Source: Methylotenera sp. (GTDB lineage Bacteria > Pseudomonadota > Gammaproteobacteria > Burkholderiales > Methylophilaceae). Taken from it: a stretch of DNA of 64,000 nt. The position numbers and the translations under genes were made by a program. The notes beneath the pieces were generated by a model, which was not told the origin of the DNA, did no database searches, and was given only the letters and a program-made list of their open reading frames with translations. Shown here piece by piece: positions 15,018-63,714 of this stretch (its first letter is position 1; every line of letters starts with the position of its first letter). Location: the NCBI GenBank assembly GCA_021732365.1, contig JAKFVD010000012.1:1-64000 (forward strand). The letters run 5' to 3'.

Positions 15018-15830
15018 ATGTTGCTATCTCAATTAAATCAAAAAGTAAAAACAGGCGAAAAACTCGCCATGCTAACCTGTTATGACGCCACTTTTGCCAA
15101 ACTTATGGAAGAAGCAAGAGTCGATATTTTATTAGTCGGTGATTCTTTAGGCATGGTGCTGCATGGCGCTGAAAATACGCTTAACGTCAGTATGCATCAT
15201 ATGACTTACCACACCAAAAGCGTGGCTGCAGGTGCGCCAAATACCTTTATTATTGCCGATATGCCGCTGGGTAGTTATGAGCATGACGCAGAAGCCGCTT
15301 ACAAAAATGCAGAGTGGCTAATCAAATCGGGCGCGCACATGGTGAAGTTTGAGGGCGGTGGCGATAAAGCCAACACTGCTCAATATTTAGTTGAGCGGGG
15401 CATTCCTGTTTGCGCGCATTTGGGCTTTACGCCGCAATCAGTTAACCAGCTTGGCGGTTATAAAATTCAGGGTAAAACCGCTGAAGGTGCGGCAAAAATC
15501 ATGCAAGATGCCAAAGCAATGGCAAACGCTGGTGTCAGCTTTATCTTGCTAGAAATGGTGCCAGCCAGCTTAGCTAAAAGCATTACTGAAAATATCAATG
15601 TGCCCACGATTGGCATTGGTGCTGGCGTGGATTGCAGTGGGCAAGTACTTGTTCTGCAAGATTTGTTAGGCATTTACACTGGGCCCAGCACTAAAAAACC
15701 TGCCGAATTCAAATCACCACGTTTTGTGCGTAATTTTTTAAAAGATACCAATAGCGTGCAAAATGCAGTCGCTGCTTATGTTATTGCCGTTAAAAACAAA
15801 ACGTTTCCAGCCTTAGAGCATAGTTATTAA
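15018..15830 (+). CDS. panB: 3-methyl-2-oxobutanoate hydroxymethyltransferase
   Basis: First committed step of pantothenate synthesis, adding a hydroxymethyl group from 5,10-methylene-THF to ketoisovalerate. Motifs: MLTCYDATFAKLMEEA, LLVGDSLGMVLHG, VKFEGGG, HLGFTPQSVNQLGGYKIQG and IGIGAG. The 270-residue length is normal. It has a 115-base leader after the CTERM gene, so it may have its own promoter, and lies 16 bases before panC. Confidence 0.96.
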   Translation: MLLSQLNQKVKTGEKLAMLTCYDATFAKLMEEARVDILLVGDSLGMVLHGAENTLNVSMHHMTYHTKSVAAGAPNTFIIADMPLGSYEHDAEAAYKNAEWLIKSGAHMVKFEGGGDKANTAQYLVERGIPVCAHLGFTPQSVNQLGGYKIQGKTAEGAAKIMQDAKAMANAGVSFILLEMVPASLAKSITENINVPTIGIGAGVDCSGQVLVLQDLLGIYTGPSTKKPAEFKSPRFVRNFLKDTNSVQNAVAAYVIAVKNKTFPALEHSY

Positions 15831-56348: not shown

Positions 56349-57089
56349 TTAAGCATTAAATTTCATATTCTGTAAGCGCACTTGCTCATTTTTTGCAGTG
56401 GCATAGCATTCGCAACTGCGGTCTTCTAAAGCTTGGCGATTTAGCACGGTGATTAAGCCGCGTTTATAGCTAATCACGCCAGCATCTTGCAGTTTTACAG
56501 CAGCGTCTGTCACGCTTTCGCGTCTGACGCCAAGCATGTTAGAGAGCATTTCTTGTGTCATTACAATTTGGTTAGAACTTAATCTATCCAAACTGAGTAA
56601 TAAGCGGCGGCATAGTTGCTGGTCAATAGAATGATGACGATTGCACACAGCAGTTTGCGTCATTTGCGTAATCATTGCCTGTGAATAGCGCAATAGAATA
56701 TTCAGCATTGCGCCGTCACGATTAATGGCGTTTTTGGCGGCTTGCGCGCGCATTCTGTAACCTTTTCCCGCGCTTTGTACCAAAGCTTGGTTAGGGCTAT
56801 TGCTGCCGGATAATAATAACGAAAGGCCCACAACGCCATCGTTACCTACAACAGCCACTTCTGATGAAGAGCCATTTTTGGTCATATAAAGAAGCGATAC
56901 GATAGCCGTAGTGGGAAAGTACATATAAGCTGGCGTTATGCCTGATTCATATAGCACTTGATTAAGCGAAAAATCCACTGGTTCCATATCTGGTTCCCAC
57001 TGGTGCCATTCATTTTCTGACATGGCTGCCAACAGGTGATTTTGTTGAGGTAAAGACGCTGGATTGAATGATTGCGCTACGATACTCAT
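56349..57089 (-). CDS. Crp/Fnr-family transcriptional regulator
   Basis: 246 residues from ATG 57089 (ribosome site AAGGGGAAATATC); the ORF extends to 57116. The N-terminal beta-roll (about 30-150) lacks FNR-type iron-sulfur Cys; the C-terminal HTH (about 165-225) includes TQEMLSNMLGVRRESVTDAAVKL (first 20). It resembles the CRP-like family found near stress genes in Burkholderiales and Rhizobiales. A TGTRCG-N4-CGYACA motif lies upstream at 57201, so it may regulate itself and the cluster at 59-64 kb. Confidence 0.88.
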   Translation of the reverse strand: MSIVAQSFNPASLPQQNHLLAAMSENEWHQWEPDMEPVDFSLNQVLYESGITPAYMYFPTTAIVSLLYMTKNGSSSEVAVVGNDGVVGLSLLLSGSNSPNQALVQSAGKGYRMRAQAAKNAINRDGAMLNILLRYSQAMITQMTQTAVCNRHHSIDQQLCRRLLLSLDRLSSNQIVMTQEMLSNMLGVRRESVTDAAVKLQDAGVISYKRGLITVLNRQALEDRSCECYATAKNEQVRLQNMKFNA

Positions 57090-57200
57090 GATATTTCCCC
57101 TTTTTGAGGATTTCATGATGCGATTATGTAGTCCACTAAATTATCAGACACAATCGGATTATGATGTAAGCCATATCCTACGTATTATATGTAAACTGTC

Positions 57201-57216
57201 TGTGCGGTAGCGTACG
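57201..57216. promoter_or_regulatory. Candidate operator upstream of the Crp/Fnr gene
   Basis: TGTGCG-GTAG-CGTACG is a near-palindrome with the same layout as the two arms of the 61628-61684 inverted repeat. It lies 112 bases before the predicted start of the regulator gene and 99 bases before the divergent EEP gene. Confidence 0.5.
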
Positions 57217-57314
57217 CTTAACTTAACCTTATTTTGCATACAATTATTTCAGCAATTTTAAATTCTTTTTAAAATTTTATTGTCAGCCATTTACCACAAT
57301 TAACAGAGCCTAAT

Positions 57315-58076
57315 TTGCCAAATACCATACGCATCGCCACTTTTAATATTCATAAAGGCTTTAGCCATTTTAATGCGCGCTTTTCCTTGCATCAGCAACG
57401 CGAATTACTACGCAACCTGCATGCCGATGTGCTTTTTTTGCAAGAAGTACAAGACGCGCATATTCATCATAGCAAACGCTTTGCTGGCTGGCCCATGGCA
57501 GGGCAGGTAGAGTTTTTAGCAGATAGTATTTGGCCGCAATTTGCCTATGGCAAAAATTCGGCCTATCCCGCTGGGCATCATGGCAACGCCTTGCTATCAA
57601 AGTTTAATATTGTTAAAACCACGAATATTGATATTTCAGCACACCCAACAGAACAACGCGGCATGCTGCACTGCACCATTGAAGTACCTGATTGGGATGC
57701 GCCTTTGCATGCCATTTGCGTGCACTTAGGTTTGTTTGCACACTGGCGGCGCCAACAACTAGGGCGAGTTGCAGATTATATTGAACAGCATGTGCCAGCC
57801 AACGCACCATTGATTATTGCGGGTGATTTTAATGATTGGAGCGCACGCGCAGGCAAAGTTTTTGCCTCGCGCTTACAGTTAAAAGAAGTGTTTGAGCAGC
57901 ATGCAGGCAAAGCTGCGCGTAGTTTTCCATCATGGCTGCCCCTGTTAAGGCTAGACCGCATTTATGTGCGCGGTTTTGATATTCAGCAGGTTAAAGTGCA
58001 TGCAGGCGCGCATTTTGTTACAGTGTCTGATCACGCCATATTAACGGCAACACTTTTAAAAACAGCGCATACATGA
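57315..58076 (+). CDS. Endonuclease/exonuclease/phosphatase-family hydrolase
   Basis: 253 residues of the EEP superfamily: RIATFNIHKGFSHFN, DVLFLQEVQDAH, PAGHHGNALLSK, AICVHLGLFAHWRRQQL, IIAGDFNDWS and SDHAILTATL give the metal and catalytic residues. TTG start at 57315. It overlaps the next gene (ATGA). In many betaproteobacteria an EEP gene precedes a cardiolipin-synthase-like gene, suggesting lipid or phosphodiester work rather than DNA repair. Confidence 0.85.
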   Translation: MPNTIRIATFNIHKGFSHFNARFSLHQQRELLRNLHADVLFLQEVQDAHIHHSKRFAGWPMAGQVEFLADSIWPQFAYGKNSAYPAGHHGNALLSKFNIVKTTNIDISAHPTEQRGMLHCTIEVPDWDAPLHAICVHLGLFAHWRRQQLGRVADYIEQHVPANAPLIIAGDFNDWSARAGKVFASRLQLKEVFEQHAGKAARSFPSWLPLLRLDRIYVRGFDIQQVKVHAGAHFVTVSDHAILTATLLKTAHT

Positions 58077-59230
58077 CCCAATTTATTGCGGGCAACCACA
58101 TTCAATTATTACGCAATGGCACAGAGTATTTTCCTGCGCTAGTCACTGCTATTGCGCAGGCAAAGCAGACGATTTATCTGCAAACCTATATTTTTGAAGT
58201 GGATGCTGCAGGCATTCAAATAGCGGATGCACTAAAAGTAGCAGCGCAACGCGACGTAACGGTGCGCGTATTGCTGGATGGATTTGGCTGTAAAGATATG
58301 CCTGCTGATTTTGTAAAAGCATTAAAAAAAGCAGGGGTGCAAATCCTGTTTTATCGACCGAAAATATCGCCTTGGACGTTCAAAAAAAATCGCTTGCGCC
58401 GCTTGCATCGCAAAGTAGTGGTGATTGATGAACAAATTGGCTTTGTGGGTGGCATTAATATTATTGATGACAATAATGTACCCAATGACATGCCACCACG
58501 CTTAGATTATGCCGTGCGCGTAGAGGGCGCGTTACTACCCAGCATGCTGGCAAGTGTACAAAAACTGTGGCGTAGAATTAAATTAACCCATTTACAAGCG
58601 TTAAGTAATGACGCAAAACCAACCATAAATGCCAAAAGTAGTATTAAAAAAGGCGTTAATGCTGCTTTTGTACTGCGCGATAATTTACTACATAGGCGCG
58701 ATATTGAAAACGCTTACTTAAGCGCTATTAATGCAGCAAAATCTGAAATTATGATTGCCAATGCGTATTTTGTGCCAGGTAGGCGCTTTAGGCAGGCCTT
58801 ATTAAAAGCAGCAAAGCGTGGCGTAAAAATCGAGCTGGTGCTGCAAGGCCGTATGGAATATTTTTTGATGTTTGCCACGCACGCTTTTTATAGCGTGTTT
58901 TTAAAAAGCGGCATTGCTATTTTTGAGTATCGCAAAAGCTATATGCATTGCAAAGTAGCGGTGATTGACAACAGCTGGGCCACTGTTGGCTCTTCTAACA
59001 TTGACCCTTTTAGCATGTTGCTGGCACGCGAAGCCAATATTGTGGTGCAAGACACGGTTTTTGCCAGCGAATTACGCACGGAAATTAGGCAATCCATTCA
59101 ACAAGAAGCGATTCAAATAGATGCACAAGAGTGGCTACAAAGTCATACTTTTAAACGCTTTTTATCGTGGCTAGTATATGGCGCAGTGAGAGGTTTTTTA
59201 GGCTTAATTGGCTATTCAAAAGAACATTAA
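58073..59230 (+). CDS. clsB: ClsB-type cardiolipin synthase
   Basis: 385-residue phospholipase D-superfamily protein with two HKD motifs: LHRKVVVIDEQIGFVGGIN (HxK, Asp) and MHCKVAVIDNSWATVGSSNID. No N-terminal membrane segments, as in E. coli ClsB. Makes cardiolipin or transfers phosphatidyl groups. It overlaps the EEP gene by four bases, so the two are co-translated, as in other genomes. Confidence 0.9.
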   Translation: MTQFIAGNHIQLLRNGTEYFPALVTAIAQAKQTIYLQTYIFEVDAAGIQIADALKVAAQRDVTVRVLLDGFGCKDMPADFVKALKKAGVQILFYRPKISPWTFKKNRLRRLHRKVVVIDEQIGFVGGINIIDDNNVPNDMPPRLDYAVRVEGALLPSMLASVQKLWRRIKLTHLQALSNDAKPTINAKSSIKKGVNAAFVLRDNLLHRRDIENAYLSAINAAKSEIMIANAYFVPGRRFRQALLKAAKRGVKIELVLQGRMEYFLMFATHAFYSVFLKSGIAIFEYRKSYMHCKVAVIDNSWATVGSSNIDPFSMLLAREANIVVQDTVFASELRTEIRQSIQQEAIQIDAQEWLQSHTFKRFLSWLVYGAVRGFLGLIGYSKEH

Positions 59231-59742: not shown

Positions 59743-61101
59743 TCACGGTGTGCTGGCTGTTACGCGCCAAATGGTATTGCCTACATCATCTGCCACAAGC
59801 AATGCGCCACTTTTGTCTAACGCCACGCCTACTGGCCGGCCGTATGCATCACCTTGTGCACTCAAAAAACCAGTTAACACATCAATAGGCAACCCTGTTG
59901 GTTTGCCATTCAAAAAAGGTACAAAAATCACTTTATAGCCACTGCGCGGCTTACGGTTCCATGAGCCGTGCTGACCAATAAACATACCGTTAGCAAACGT
60001 ATCGGGCAAAGTTGTGCCTTGCGATGCTGCCAAGCCCAGCGATGCCGTATGCGAACCTAGCGCATAATCTGGCGCTATTGCTTTAGCCACCAAATCAGGT
60101 TGTGGTGGTTGCACACGCTCATCCACATGCTGGCCATAATAGCTATAAGGCCAGCCATAAAAAGCGCCATCTTGCACAGAAGTTAAATAATCAGGCACCA
60201 AATCACCGCCAATTTCATCACGTTCATTCACCACGGTAAATAAAGTATTGCTCATTGGCTCCCAAGCCATGCCATTGGGGTTACGCAAACCAGAGGCAAA
60301 AATACGGTAGGTGCTAGTTTTAATATCAACTTCTAATATGGCCGCGCGTTCAAATTCGGCTTGCATGCCGTTTTCTGCTACGTTGCTGTTAGAGCCTACA
60401 GTGACGTAAAGCTTGCTGCCATCTGCATTCGCAATAATATTTTTAGTCCAGTGATGATTAATGCCGCTAGGCAAGTCAATTATTTTTTCGCCAGGGTCTG
60501 CAATTTTTTTATCGCCCTCTGTGTAGTTGAATCGCACAATCGCATTTGCATTAGCAACATATAAATGGTTGCCCACTAATGCCATACCAAAGGGTGAGTA
60601 CAAGCCCTCTAAAAACGCTAAGCGCATGTCAGAAACGCCATCTCCGTCTACATCGCGCAGCAAAGTAATGCGGTTTGCACTTGGCACTCCAGCGCCAGCG
60701 CGCTTCATCACCATGCCCATTACCCAGCCTCTAATACCGCCGCCATCTGCCTTGGGTGGCGCATTGGTTTCTGCCACCAACACATCGCCATTAGGTAAAA
60801 CAGTCATCCAGCGCGGATGCTCTAGGCCGCTTGCAAAAGCGGCAACGCGGGTGCCAGCGGCTGGAATAGGCATTGTTGTATTTGGCCAGCCTTGTGCCGG
60901 CGCAATGTTAACAGTTGGTATCAGGCTTTTATTTGGCGCAGGTAATGTGGGGTTTGCACCCACGCCTGCAGAAACTGGCAAACTAGCCACTTCGCCACAG
61001 GCTGTTAAAAACAAGGCACTTAGAAATAAGGCAAATATGCCTAATGTCGATTTAAACCCAGCGTTAAATTGACTGAAACCGACATTATTTTTTATCATCA
61101 T
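59743..61101 (-). CDS. PQQ-type sugar/sorbosone dehydrogenase lipoprotein
   Basis: 452 residues with a lipoprotein signal ([13 protein letters not shown]), then a six-bladed beta-propeller: [55 protein letters not shown] and [16 protein letters not shown] are of the L-sorbosone/glucose dehydrogenase (GDH) type. Natural substrate unknown. Start ATG 61101 overlaps the DUF3309 stop (ATGA), so it is probably coupled to that gene. Confidence 0.87.
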
Positions 61102-61256
61102 ATACGCCCCATTAACACCAAAACAATTAAGATAATGACCACTAAACCTAAACCACCACTTGGGCCATAACCCCAGCTTTTACTGTGCGACCAGCCTGGA
61201 AATGCGCCAATCAGCATTAAAATTAAAACGATTAATAATATGGTACCTAAGCTCAT
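61098..61256 (-). CDS. DUF3309 two-segment membrane peptide
   Basis: 52 residues; [20 protein letters not shown], the turn [17 protein letters not shown], then [15 protein letters not shown]: two hydrophobic helices with the family PSGG loop. Function unknown. The stop overlaps the start of the dehydrogenase gene. Upstream sequence AGGGGATTAT is a plausible ribosome site. Not in many gene calls because it is short. Confidence 0.85.
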
Positions 61257-61297: not shown

Positions 61298-61567
61298 CTA
61301 TTCTGCAAGTGGCTCTGGCGCTGCTTCAACTTCTGGCGGCGTAATAATAATGGTTGTATCGCCGCTTGCCTCACCTGTTTCACCTTGTATACCCGCATCG
61401 CCAGTTTCTCCCGTTGCACCTGTTTGACCTGATTCTCCTGCAGGGCCTGCTGGGCCTGGAACTGGCACTATAATGGTTTCAGCTGGCACGTTGACTACGG
61501 TTGGTTTATCGCATGCAGTTAAGCTTAATAAGCCAATAATTGAAGCAGTTAATATGAAATGGTTCAT
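61298..61567 (-). CDS. Collagen-like lipoprotein
   Basis: 89 residues: lipoprotein signal IGLLSLTACDK (Cys 19), then a short extended stretch and about nine Gly-X-Y triplets (GPAGPAGESGQTGATGET, then GDAGIQGETGEASGD), then an acidic Pro-rich end. A surface or periplasmic triple-helical spacer is likely, role unknown. Start ATG 61567, ribosome site AAGGATTATTC. Next to DUF3309 with a 41-base gap. Confidence 0.8.
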   Translation of the reverse strand: MNHFILTASIIGLLSLTACDKPTVVNVPAETIIVPVPGPAGPAGESGQTGATGETGDAGIQGETGEASGDTTIIITPPEVEAAPEPLAE

Positions 61568-61627
61568 GAATAATCCTTATAAATGTGGTGAGTGCGCATA
61601 GTGTAGGCTTTAAACAATCGCACTTCG

Positions 61628-61684
61628 GTGCGCTGTCGTACATAGGCATTCATATCATCACACTAGCAATGTACGACAGCGCAC
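61628..61684. promoter_or_regulatory. 16-bp perfect inverted repeat, candidate Crp-type operator pair
   Basis: GTGCGCTGTCGTACAT (61628-61643) and ATGTACGACAGCGCAC (61669-61684), 25 bases apart. Each arm is itself a near-palindrome of the form TGTRCG-N4-CGYACA, 41 bases centre to centre. It lies between the divergent collagen-like lipoprotein and the Cys-rich small gene. It could be a hairpin on RNA or a paired operator on DNA. Confidence 0.7.
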
Positions 61685-61746
61685 AGACCCGTTTGAAGAT
61701 AAAATCTATTGTGTACTAACTAATGAGTTTAAATTGGGACGCAATC

Positions 61747-61902
61747 ATGATGAAATCTACTTGTAACTGTCCACTTTGTGCTGGCTATGCGGTGCGTATT
61801 CATCGCCGTTTGGCAGATAGAGTAATTAGTTGGTTTAAGCCTGTTTATCGTTATGAGTGCCAAGATTACCATTGCCAATGGCAAGGTAACATTCGTTGCT
61901 AA
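61747..61902 (+). CDS. 51-residue Cys-rich protein
   Basis: Starts MMKSTCNCPLCAGYAVRI (first Cys set C-x-C-x2-C) and ends YECQDYHCQWQGNIRC, six Cys and several His/Trp, zinc-ribbon-like. Basic middle RIHRRLADR. No ribosome site stands out. Unrecognised. It ends 12 bases before the start of the PAS/GGDEF/EAL gene, so both may be one transcript under the operator pair. Confidence 0.6.
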   Translation: MMKSTCNCPLCAGYAVRIHRRLADRVISWFKPVYRYECQDYHCQWQGNIRC

Positions 61903-61914
61903 ATCTGTTTATAT

Positions 61915-63714
61915 TTGGTTAGCCATATTTATCGCAGATTCATTTCAGCAGGATTCATTATAAAAAACCCTATTATTCAAAATCTTAATGTTGAAAATCC
62001 TACTATTTTTAACGACGCACTATATAAAGATAAAATTAGGGCTGAAATTGCACTTAACTCAATTAGCGATGCAGTCATTTGCACCGATATTCGTGGCAAT
62101 ATCGATTACTTAAATATTGCGGCTGAAAAAATAACAGGTTGGTCGCGCGAAGAAGCCGCTGGACATCCATTCAGCCATGTGTTTCAGATTATTGATGGCG
62201 CCACCCGCCAGCCTATCATTAACCCTGTCGATTTAGTCTTGCAATCGAACAAAGCGATGGGCTTAGCCGAAGATACGGTATTGGTTAGACGTGATGGCAG
62301 CGAAATTGAAATTGCAGATTCCGCTTCGCCTATTCATGATTGGGATAGTAAACTGACTGGCGTGGTAGTGGTGTTTCATGATGTAAGCGTGGCAAAAGCC
62401 ATGAGCATGAAAATGACGCATTTGGCGCAACATGATTTTTTAACCAATCTACCTAACCGTGTACTGTTAAATGATCGCATTGCGCAGGCGATTGCGTCAG
62501 CTAATCGTTATGGCACGCAAGTGGCGCTACTTTTTTTGGATTTAGATAATTTTAAGCATATTAATGATTCATTAGGCCATGCGACTGGCGATAAATTATT
62601 GCAATCGGTCACCAAGCGCCTCAGTTCCAGTGTGCGCAATACGGACACGGTTAGCCGGCAAGGTGGCGATGAATTTATTATTTTATTAGAAGACAGCAAA
62701 ACAGGTAAAACAGCCGCCTTAACTGCCGAAAAGATTTTAGAAGAGCTCACCTTGCCACATATCATTGGCAAATGTCAGTTGCATATCACCACTAGCATCG
62801 GCATCAGCGTTTACCCACAAAATGGCTCAGATGCCGAAGAATTGCTTAAGAATGCAGATACTGCCATGTATCACGCCAAAGAAAATGGGCGCAATAACTA
62901 CCAGTTTTTTGAAAACGAGATGAACACGCGCGCTGTGCAGCGACTACAGATTGAAGCGGATTTGCGTGTTGCATTAGAAAAGAAACAGTTTGTATTGCAC
63001 TATCAGCCTAAAATTAATTTAGATAATAACCAAATAACAGGCGTGGAATGCTTGTTGCGCTGGCAACATGATGAGCGGGGCGAAATGCTGCCAGAACAAT
63101 TTGTCGCCATTGCCGAAGAATCGGGATTAATCGTGCCAATTGGCCGCTGGGTATTGCGTGAGGCCTGTAAACAAGCCAAAAAATGGTTGGATGAAAGTAA
63201 GCCAATTATCATTATCGCGGTCAATATTTCAGCAAAAGAGTTCTTGCATAAAGACTTTGTAGAAAATGTGCGCGCGATTTTAATTGAGTCGCAATTGCCT
63301 TCATCTCACTTAGAGCTAGAAATTACCGAAAGCGTACTCATGCGCGACGCACAATCCAGCACTGCAATCTTGCATCAATTAAAGCAAATAGGCATTCAAT
63401 TAACGGTTGATGATTTTGGCACAGGCTATTCCAGCCTAAGTTATTTGCAACAGTTTCCAATTGATGTGCTTAAAATTGATCAGTCTTTTGTACATCAAGT
63501 TGCGTCTGCCTCTGATGAGGGCGTGATTGTGAGCGCCATTATTAGTATGGGCAATAGCCTTAAACTAAGGGTGATTGCAGAAGGCATTGAAAATAAAATG
63601 CAGCTGGATTTTTTAAAAAGCCGTCATTGTACAGAGGGTCAGGGCTATTTTTTTAGCCCTGCATTGATAGCCACGGCGTTTGCGGCAACTTACCTAAAAA
63701 CCAATATTAGCTAA
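61915..63714 (+). CDS. PAS-GGDEF-EAL cyclic-di-GMP enzyme
   Basis: 599 residues, no membrane segment. PAS about 45-160 (AVICTDIRGNIDYLNIAAEKI), GGDEF about 170-335 with RQGGDEFIILL, EAL about 340-595 with ECLLRW in place of EALLRW, then NISAKEF, ELEITESVLM and DDFGTGYSSL. The ECL variant is common in active enzymes, so the direction is not certain. The start is TTG 61915; no ATG is near. Confidence 0.9.
   Translation: MVSHIYRRFISAGFIIKNPIIQNLNVENPTIFNDALYKDKIRAEIALNSISDAVICTDIRGNIDYLNIAAEKITGWSREEAAGHPFSHVFQIIDGATRQPIINPVDLVLQSNKAMGLAEDTVLVRRDGSEIEIADSASPIHDWDSKLTGVVVVFHDVSVAKAMSMKMTHLAQHDFLTNLPNRVLLNDRIAQAIASANRYGTQVALLFLDLDNFKHINDSLGHATGDKLLQSVTKRLSSSVRNTDTVSRQGGDEFIILLEDSKTGKTAALTAEKILEELTLPHIIGKCQLHITTSIGISVYPQNGSDAEELLKNADTAMYHAKENGRNNYQFFENEMNTRAVQRLQIEADLRVALEKKQFVLHYQPKINLDNNQITGVECLLRWQHDERGEMLPEQFVAIAEESGLIVPIGRWVLREACKQAKKWLDESKPIIIIAVNISAKEFLHKDFVENVRAILIESQLPSSHLELEITESVLMRDAQSSTAILHQLKQIGIQLTVDDFGTGYSSLSYLQQFPIDVLKIDQSFVHQVASASDEGVIVSAIISMGNSLKLRVIAEGIENKMQLDFLKSRHCTEGQGYFFSPALIATAFAATYLKTNIS

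Follow-up and report, generated by a model that had tools for sequence, protein, structure and literature searches.

Predicted back-to-back operators of a Crp/Fnr-family protein within an inverted repeat of Methylotenera sp.

Results

The inverted repeat and its surroundings

The window analysed here, a stretch of 64,000 nucleotides from a Methylotenera sp. contig, contains an inverted repeat at 61625–61687 (no strand assigned), whose 19-bp arms (61625–61643 and 61669–61687) are complementary at 18 of 19 bases (95%) and enclose a loop of 25 nt. A sequence-only reading of this DNA had described a perfect 16-bp inverted repeat here, and the cores of the arms, 61628–61643 and 61669–61684, are indeed perfectly complementary. 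It had also assigned the form TGTRCG-N4-CGYACA to each arm, which is exact for the right arm (61670–61685, plus strand, TGTACGACAGCGCACA) but not for the left (61627–61642, minus strand, GGTGCGCTGTCGTACA), which has one mismatch. The dyad centres of these two predicted operators, 61634.5 and 61677.5, are 43 bp apart; the 41 bases given earlier is the distance between the trimmed arms.

To the left of the repeat, on the minus strand, lie a gene for a collagen-like lipoprotein of 89 aa (61298–61567; 22.8 bits to Pfam Collagen, whose curated cut-off is 27.2), a gene for a DUF3309 small membrane protein of 52 aa (61098–61256; E 6e-23) and a gene for a glucose/sorbosone-dehydrogenase-like (GSDH) lipoprotein (59743–61101), which may well be transcribed together. 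To the right, on the plus strand, a small cysteine-rich ORF of 51 aa (61747–61902; 59 aa if the start is at 61723) with no Pfam match is followed, probably on the same transcript, by a gene for a PAS-GGDEF-EAL protein (61915–63714). The small ORF contains the motifs CPLC...CQDYHC, judged zinc-ribbon-like by eye, and was encountered near sites only here and in a near-identical strain.

A further copy had been noticed before a Crp/Fnr-family regulator gene (56349–57116, minus strand), and we confirm it at 57201–57216 (minus strand), again with one mismatch to TGTRCG-N4-CGYACA. This predicted operator separates the regulator gene from a divergent gene of the endonuclease/exonuclease/phosphatase family (57315–58076, plus strand), itself a possible target, which is followed by an ORF at 58073–59230 named PLD-like by eye from its HKD-type motifs. 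No other intergenic copy had been noticed in the window, and a weight matrix derived later (see below) finds only the sites at 57201, 61627 and 61670, with scores of 16.5, 19.9 and 24.5, respectively. The loose pattern is not over-represented in the window (9 matches with up to two mismatches, 8.3 expected), and the genome-wide search for TGTRCG-N4-CGYACA that the sequence-only reading had proposed gave no excess in the 2.5-Mb genome (18 matches with at most one mismatch versus 19 for a reversed-pattern control). The significance of the motif comes from the comparative evidence and not from this window alone.

Other predicted sites were seen in the same genome. A second pair, 64103–64118 and 64194–64209, lies just outside the window on the same contig, between a CsbD-like gene (minus strand) and a cardiolipin-synthase/phospholipase D-like gene (plus strand). 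On contig C10 a site at 15365–15380 (score 21.0, with TATGAT at 29.5 bp) is found about 190 bp before an ORF resembling a molybdenum hydroxylase Fe-S subunit.

The regulator

The product of 56349–57116 has a C-terminal Crp-type helix-turn-helix (HTH_Crp_2, E 3e-13; PF13545, 49.9 bits with a cut-off of 27). A possible N-terminal beta barrel of the cNMP-binding type scores 26.8 bits with PF00027, for which the cut-off is 27.5. Its recognition helix, GVRRE-x-VT, is invariant among 23 orthologues. A structure model predicted from the single sequence was too poor for use (pLDDT 39.5), and a single-sequence structure search returned no solved structure of the subfamily at E 1e-3. The closest named relative, from a Methylotenera MAG, has a protein that is 97% identical, and a related-locus search of genome contigs gave only four close Methylotenera loci. 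In the open-licence literature, whose silence is weak evidence, we found no paper on this subfamily or tying the regulator to the motif or to the genes discussed below; the subfamily is apparently both widespread and uncharacterised.

At locus L062 (G068:C14:22029-22778) the orthologue, 84% identical to that of the window, is broken by two stop codons, and a second relative is encoded about 6 kb away on that contig. Genome G139 (L121-L123, L145) has seven matches to the regulator, one of them with a stop codon, and polysaccharide-type genes (undecaprenyl-phosphate sugar transferase, galE) adjoin its sites.

The motif recovered from related genomes

Sixty regions around orthologues of the Crp/Fnr gene were taken from Methylophilaceae, of which 59 (747 kb) were counted after exclusion of the near-identical strain, and all 6-mer palindromes with spacers of 0-12 were enumerated without use of the motif proposed before. 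TGTnCG-N4-CGnACA ranks first in this enumeration, with 58 copies in 37 loci, followed by shifted forms of itself (22) and by unrelated palindromes (17). The weight matrix revealed bases that had not been imposed (T/A flanks at 85%, A/C beside the flanks and an nTAn centre), giving a refined 20-bp consensus of T-M-TGTDCG-nTAn-CGHACA-K-A, and its matches scoring 12 or more number 175 versus 1 in Markov-shuffled sequence. In these neighbourhoods a gene start lies within 300 bp of 167 of the 184 sites. The motif has the 16-bp two-fold symmetry with TGT/ACA ends of operators in the Crp/Fnr superfamily, for whose proteins both this palindrome and a position at -41.5 are typical. We regard the sites as a conserved set of predicted operators, most likely for the adjoining Crp/Fnr protein.

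Co-occurrence of motif and orthologue

If the Crp/Fnr protein reads the motif, do the two occur together? Within 150 Methylophilaceae genomes the exact motif was found 89 times in the 49 that have the orthologue (31 for the reversed-pattern control) and 19 times in the 101 that do not (control, 43). The association extends to the Burkholderiales, where the refined motif is present in 42 of the 75 genomes that have the orthologue versus 8 of the 175 that do not (p=3e-19), and to the Pseudomonadota, where the corresponding figures are 12 of 26 and 15 of 253 (p=2e-7). Genomes and sites are related by descent, so that the counts do not come from independent samples. In the order the reversed pattern occurs in 7 of the 75 genomes with an orthologue and 8 of the 175 without, and since the latter rate equals that of the motif itself, we treat the motif's occurrence in genomes of the order lacking the orthologue as chance; genome G021 of the family (see Discussion) is not so treated. 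Many orthologues also have a site in front of them: the 230 bp before the gene contain one in 15 of 29 loci from the family and in 25 of 36 from the order or phylum, compared with none in control windows inside the gene; a class II -10 element (see below) accompanies 13 and 12 of these sites, respectively. The earlier suggestion of one regulator is supported, and that regulator is most likely the protein encoded at 56349–57116, in view of the unsupervised motif discovery, the co-occurrence and the sites in the promoters of many orthologues.

Promoter geometry

In class II activation by CRP, which is well established, the operator is centred at -41.5. Of 160 oriented sites in the relatives, 36 have a -10-like TAnnnT that begins 29.5 bp downstream of the centre, versus about 2 at other offsets, and offsets of 28.5–30.5 combined account for 55 of the 160 (control windows: mean 6.4, maximum 14). 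This is the spacing of a class II activator promoter, and it suggests that the bound protein would act as an activator. At the inverted repeat each site has its own -10 candidate at 29.5, facing outward: TACACT (61600–61605, minus strand) for the 61627 site, and TATTGT (61707–61712, plus strand) for the 61670 site. The pair beyond the window end has the same arrangement, with TAATCT between 64103 and the CsbD-like gene and TATTAT between 64194 and the phospholipase D gene, so that all four promoters of the two pairs have a -10 at exactly 29.5. The same is true relative to a site in all 11 members of the collagen-like lipoprotein cluster. For BON targets it is true of only 5 of 21, and not every site is therefore expected to act as class II.

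The site at 57201 is less clear-cut. The Crp/Fnr gene has a possible class II -10 at 28.5 (TAGGAT, 57175–57180, minus strand) and a better one, TATAAT, at 19.5 (57184–57189, minus strand), with which the operator would overlap the -35 region, an arrangement that would suit repression; for the divergent gene, TACAAT at 30.5 (57239–57244, plus strand) is a possible class II element.

Genes beside the sites

Clustering of the 184 site-proximal genes, called in relatives with a simple ORF finder, gave the regulator itself (32), BON lipoproteins (21), collagen-like lipoproteins (11), CsbD-like proteins (11), a cluster with a PEP-CTERM member (8), PAS-GGDEF-EAL proteins (7, in as many loci), EF-hand proteins (7) and phospholipase D (7), then glycine-zipper, PRC and DUF883 proteins, and finally single DUF3309 and other genes. 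Similar genes are found beside sites located far from the regulator as well. The targets are likely to be envelope and stress genes, and judged by this content the regulon would be a stress regulon resembling general stress regulons.

Discussion

Computation yielded the motif, the association between motif and regulator, the phasing of the -10 elements and the target list. From them we think it probable that the two arms of the inverted repeat are two separate, back-to-back class II operators of the Crp/Fnr-family protein encoded at 56349–57116, or of a paralogue that shares its recognition helix. A dimer of this protein would bind the 20-bp site and would activate from a centre at -41.5, where it would replace the -35 element; the -10 would begin 29.5 bp away from that centre. 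The 61627 site would drive the leftward lipoprotein, DUF3309 and GSDH genes and the 61670 site, to the right, the small ORF and the PAS-GGDEF-EAL gene, and the protein would also control its own promoter and scattered envelope and stress genes. On this model the sites are inverted because the two promoters point in opposite directions.

Could the same protein instead use these sites as repressor operators, blocking RNA polymerase? At the Crp/Fnr promoter the consensus TATAAT is 19.5 bp from the site centre, so that the operator would lie over the -35 region, which would suit such a mechanism. As an account of the sites generally we regard it as unlikely, in that the -10 elements of the relatives are concentrated at 29.5–30.5 rather than at positions that a site overlaps, and that the lipoprotein cluster has its -10 at 29.5 without exception.

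A second question is whether a different regulator reads the motif, the Crp/Fnr gene being merely one of its targets. Genome G021, a member of the family, would be the case in point, as it retains five exact copies of the motif beside target genes of the usual kinds, several with class II -10s, yet no Crp/Fnr orthologue was found in it at E 1e-3 and its Crp-type helix-turn-helix proteins do not have the GVRRE helix. Against this single genome stand the excess of the motif, which tracks the presence of the orthologue in family, order and phylum and falls to the control level in order genomes that do not have it, and the 16-bp palindrome and -41.5 position themselves, which are those of Crp/Fnr proteins; a different regulator is in our judgement quite improbable.

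The sequence-only reading had favoured cooperative binding with looping, and two dimers of one regulator might indeed bind the arms cooperatively, looping the DNA or jointly activating a single promoter. The two good sites are 43 bp (about 4.1 turns) apart, the more distant site would be centred at -84.5 relative to each promoter, from where tandem (class III) activation of the kind known for CRP is conceivable, and paired sites are found elsewhere too. However, each arm has an outward-facing -10 of its own, a single site is present in 35 of 44 divergent regions of relatives, and 8 of the 11 genes of the lipoprotein cluster have a single site, not two, within 260 bp. The spacings between neighbouring sites range from 29 to 131 bp, and helical phasing of them is not supported (resultant 0.28 at 10.5 bp, n=34; Rayleigh p of about 0.07, calculated by hand). 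With most divergent regions having one site and the spacings showing no clear phasing, cooperative binding and looping are not supported and joint action of the arms seems to us improbable. Finally, a transcribed hairpin (a terminator or another element of the RNA) or a mobile palindrome of the REP type, to which the 19-bp complementary arms and 25-nt loop might point, is scarcely credible and the hairpin was rejected, because the arms would lie outside both transcripts (starts expected near 61593 and 61719), no U-run follows them, and the copies are few, precede genes and are in phase with a -10.

The preferred reading, that of separate class II operators, raises a broader possibility, which we would place somewhat short of probable: that a Crp/Fnr subfamily not described before, which occurs in many Burkholderiales, in other Gammaproteobacteria and in one or more further classes of Pseudomonadota, activates a regulon of envelope and general-stress-like genes (BON, CsbD-like, DUF3309, PRC and DUF883 proteins, collagen-like lipoproteins, phospholipase D and c-di-GMP enzymes), and partly fills the role that EcfG or RpoS has elsewhere. 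What is gained is a candidate DNA-binding motif, mode of action and target list for a common regulator family, and a motif with which regulons can be read from sequence alone. Across Proteobacteria, one activator would link many small genes whose function is unknown (DUF3309, CsbD-like, BON, DUF883 and collagen-like lipoproteins).

How does the predicted system compare with known ones? With CRP (catabolite activator protein) of E. coli it shares the Crp-type helix-turn-helix, the 16-bp palindrome with outer TGT/ACA and the class II position of -41.5, and the equivalents of CRP Arg180 and Glu181 are conserved in the orthologues (R198 and E199); the CRP sequence used for this comparison agrees with PDB 1g6n along its full length. 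The half-site differs, being TGTnCG (TGTDCG in the matrix) rather than the TGTGA of CRP, and the position of Arg185 is occupied by D, E, A or Q, which would fit the free fourth base of the half-site. Arg82 and Ser83, which in CRP bind the phosphate of cAMP, are not kept (mostly T/S and P in the 23 orthologues, in a part where the alignment is weak). The oxygen and NO sensors FNR and DNR belong to the same superfamily, DNR (3dkw) being a weak profile match at 1e-5. The N-terminal Fe-S cysteine cluster of FNR is absent from the window protein, whose first cysteine is C157 in the numbering of the orthologue alignment, and the operator is unlike the FNR consensus, TTGAT-N4-ATCAA. The nearest structures by profile, 3dv8, 4cyd and 4byy (E 2e-9 to 2e-8), have the DNA-binding domain in common with it.

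In function, the closest parallel may be the EcfG general stress response of Alphaproteobacteria. CsbD-like genes are among the predicted targets here, and csbD is a direct EcfG target in Sphingopyxis (PMC7083833). The EcfG response is driven by a sigma factor, whereas here a Crp/Fnr site would replace the -35 element before a sigma-70-like -10.
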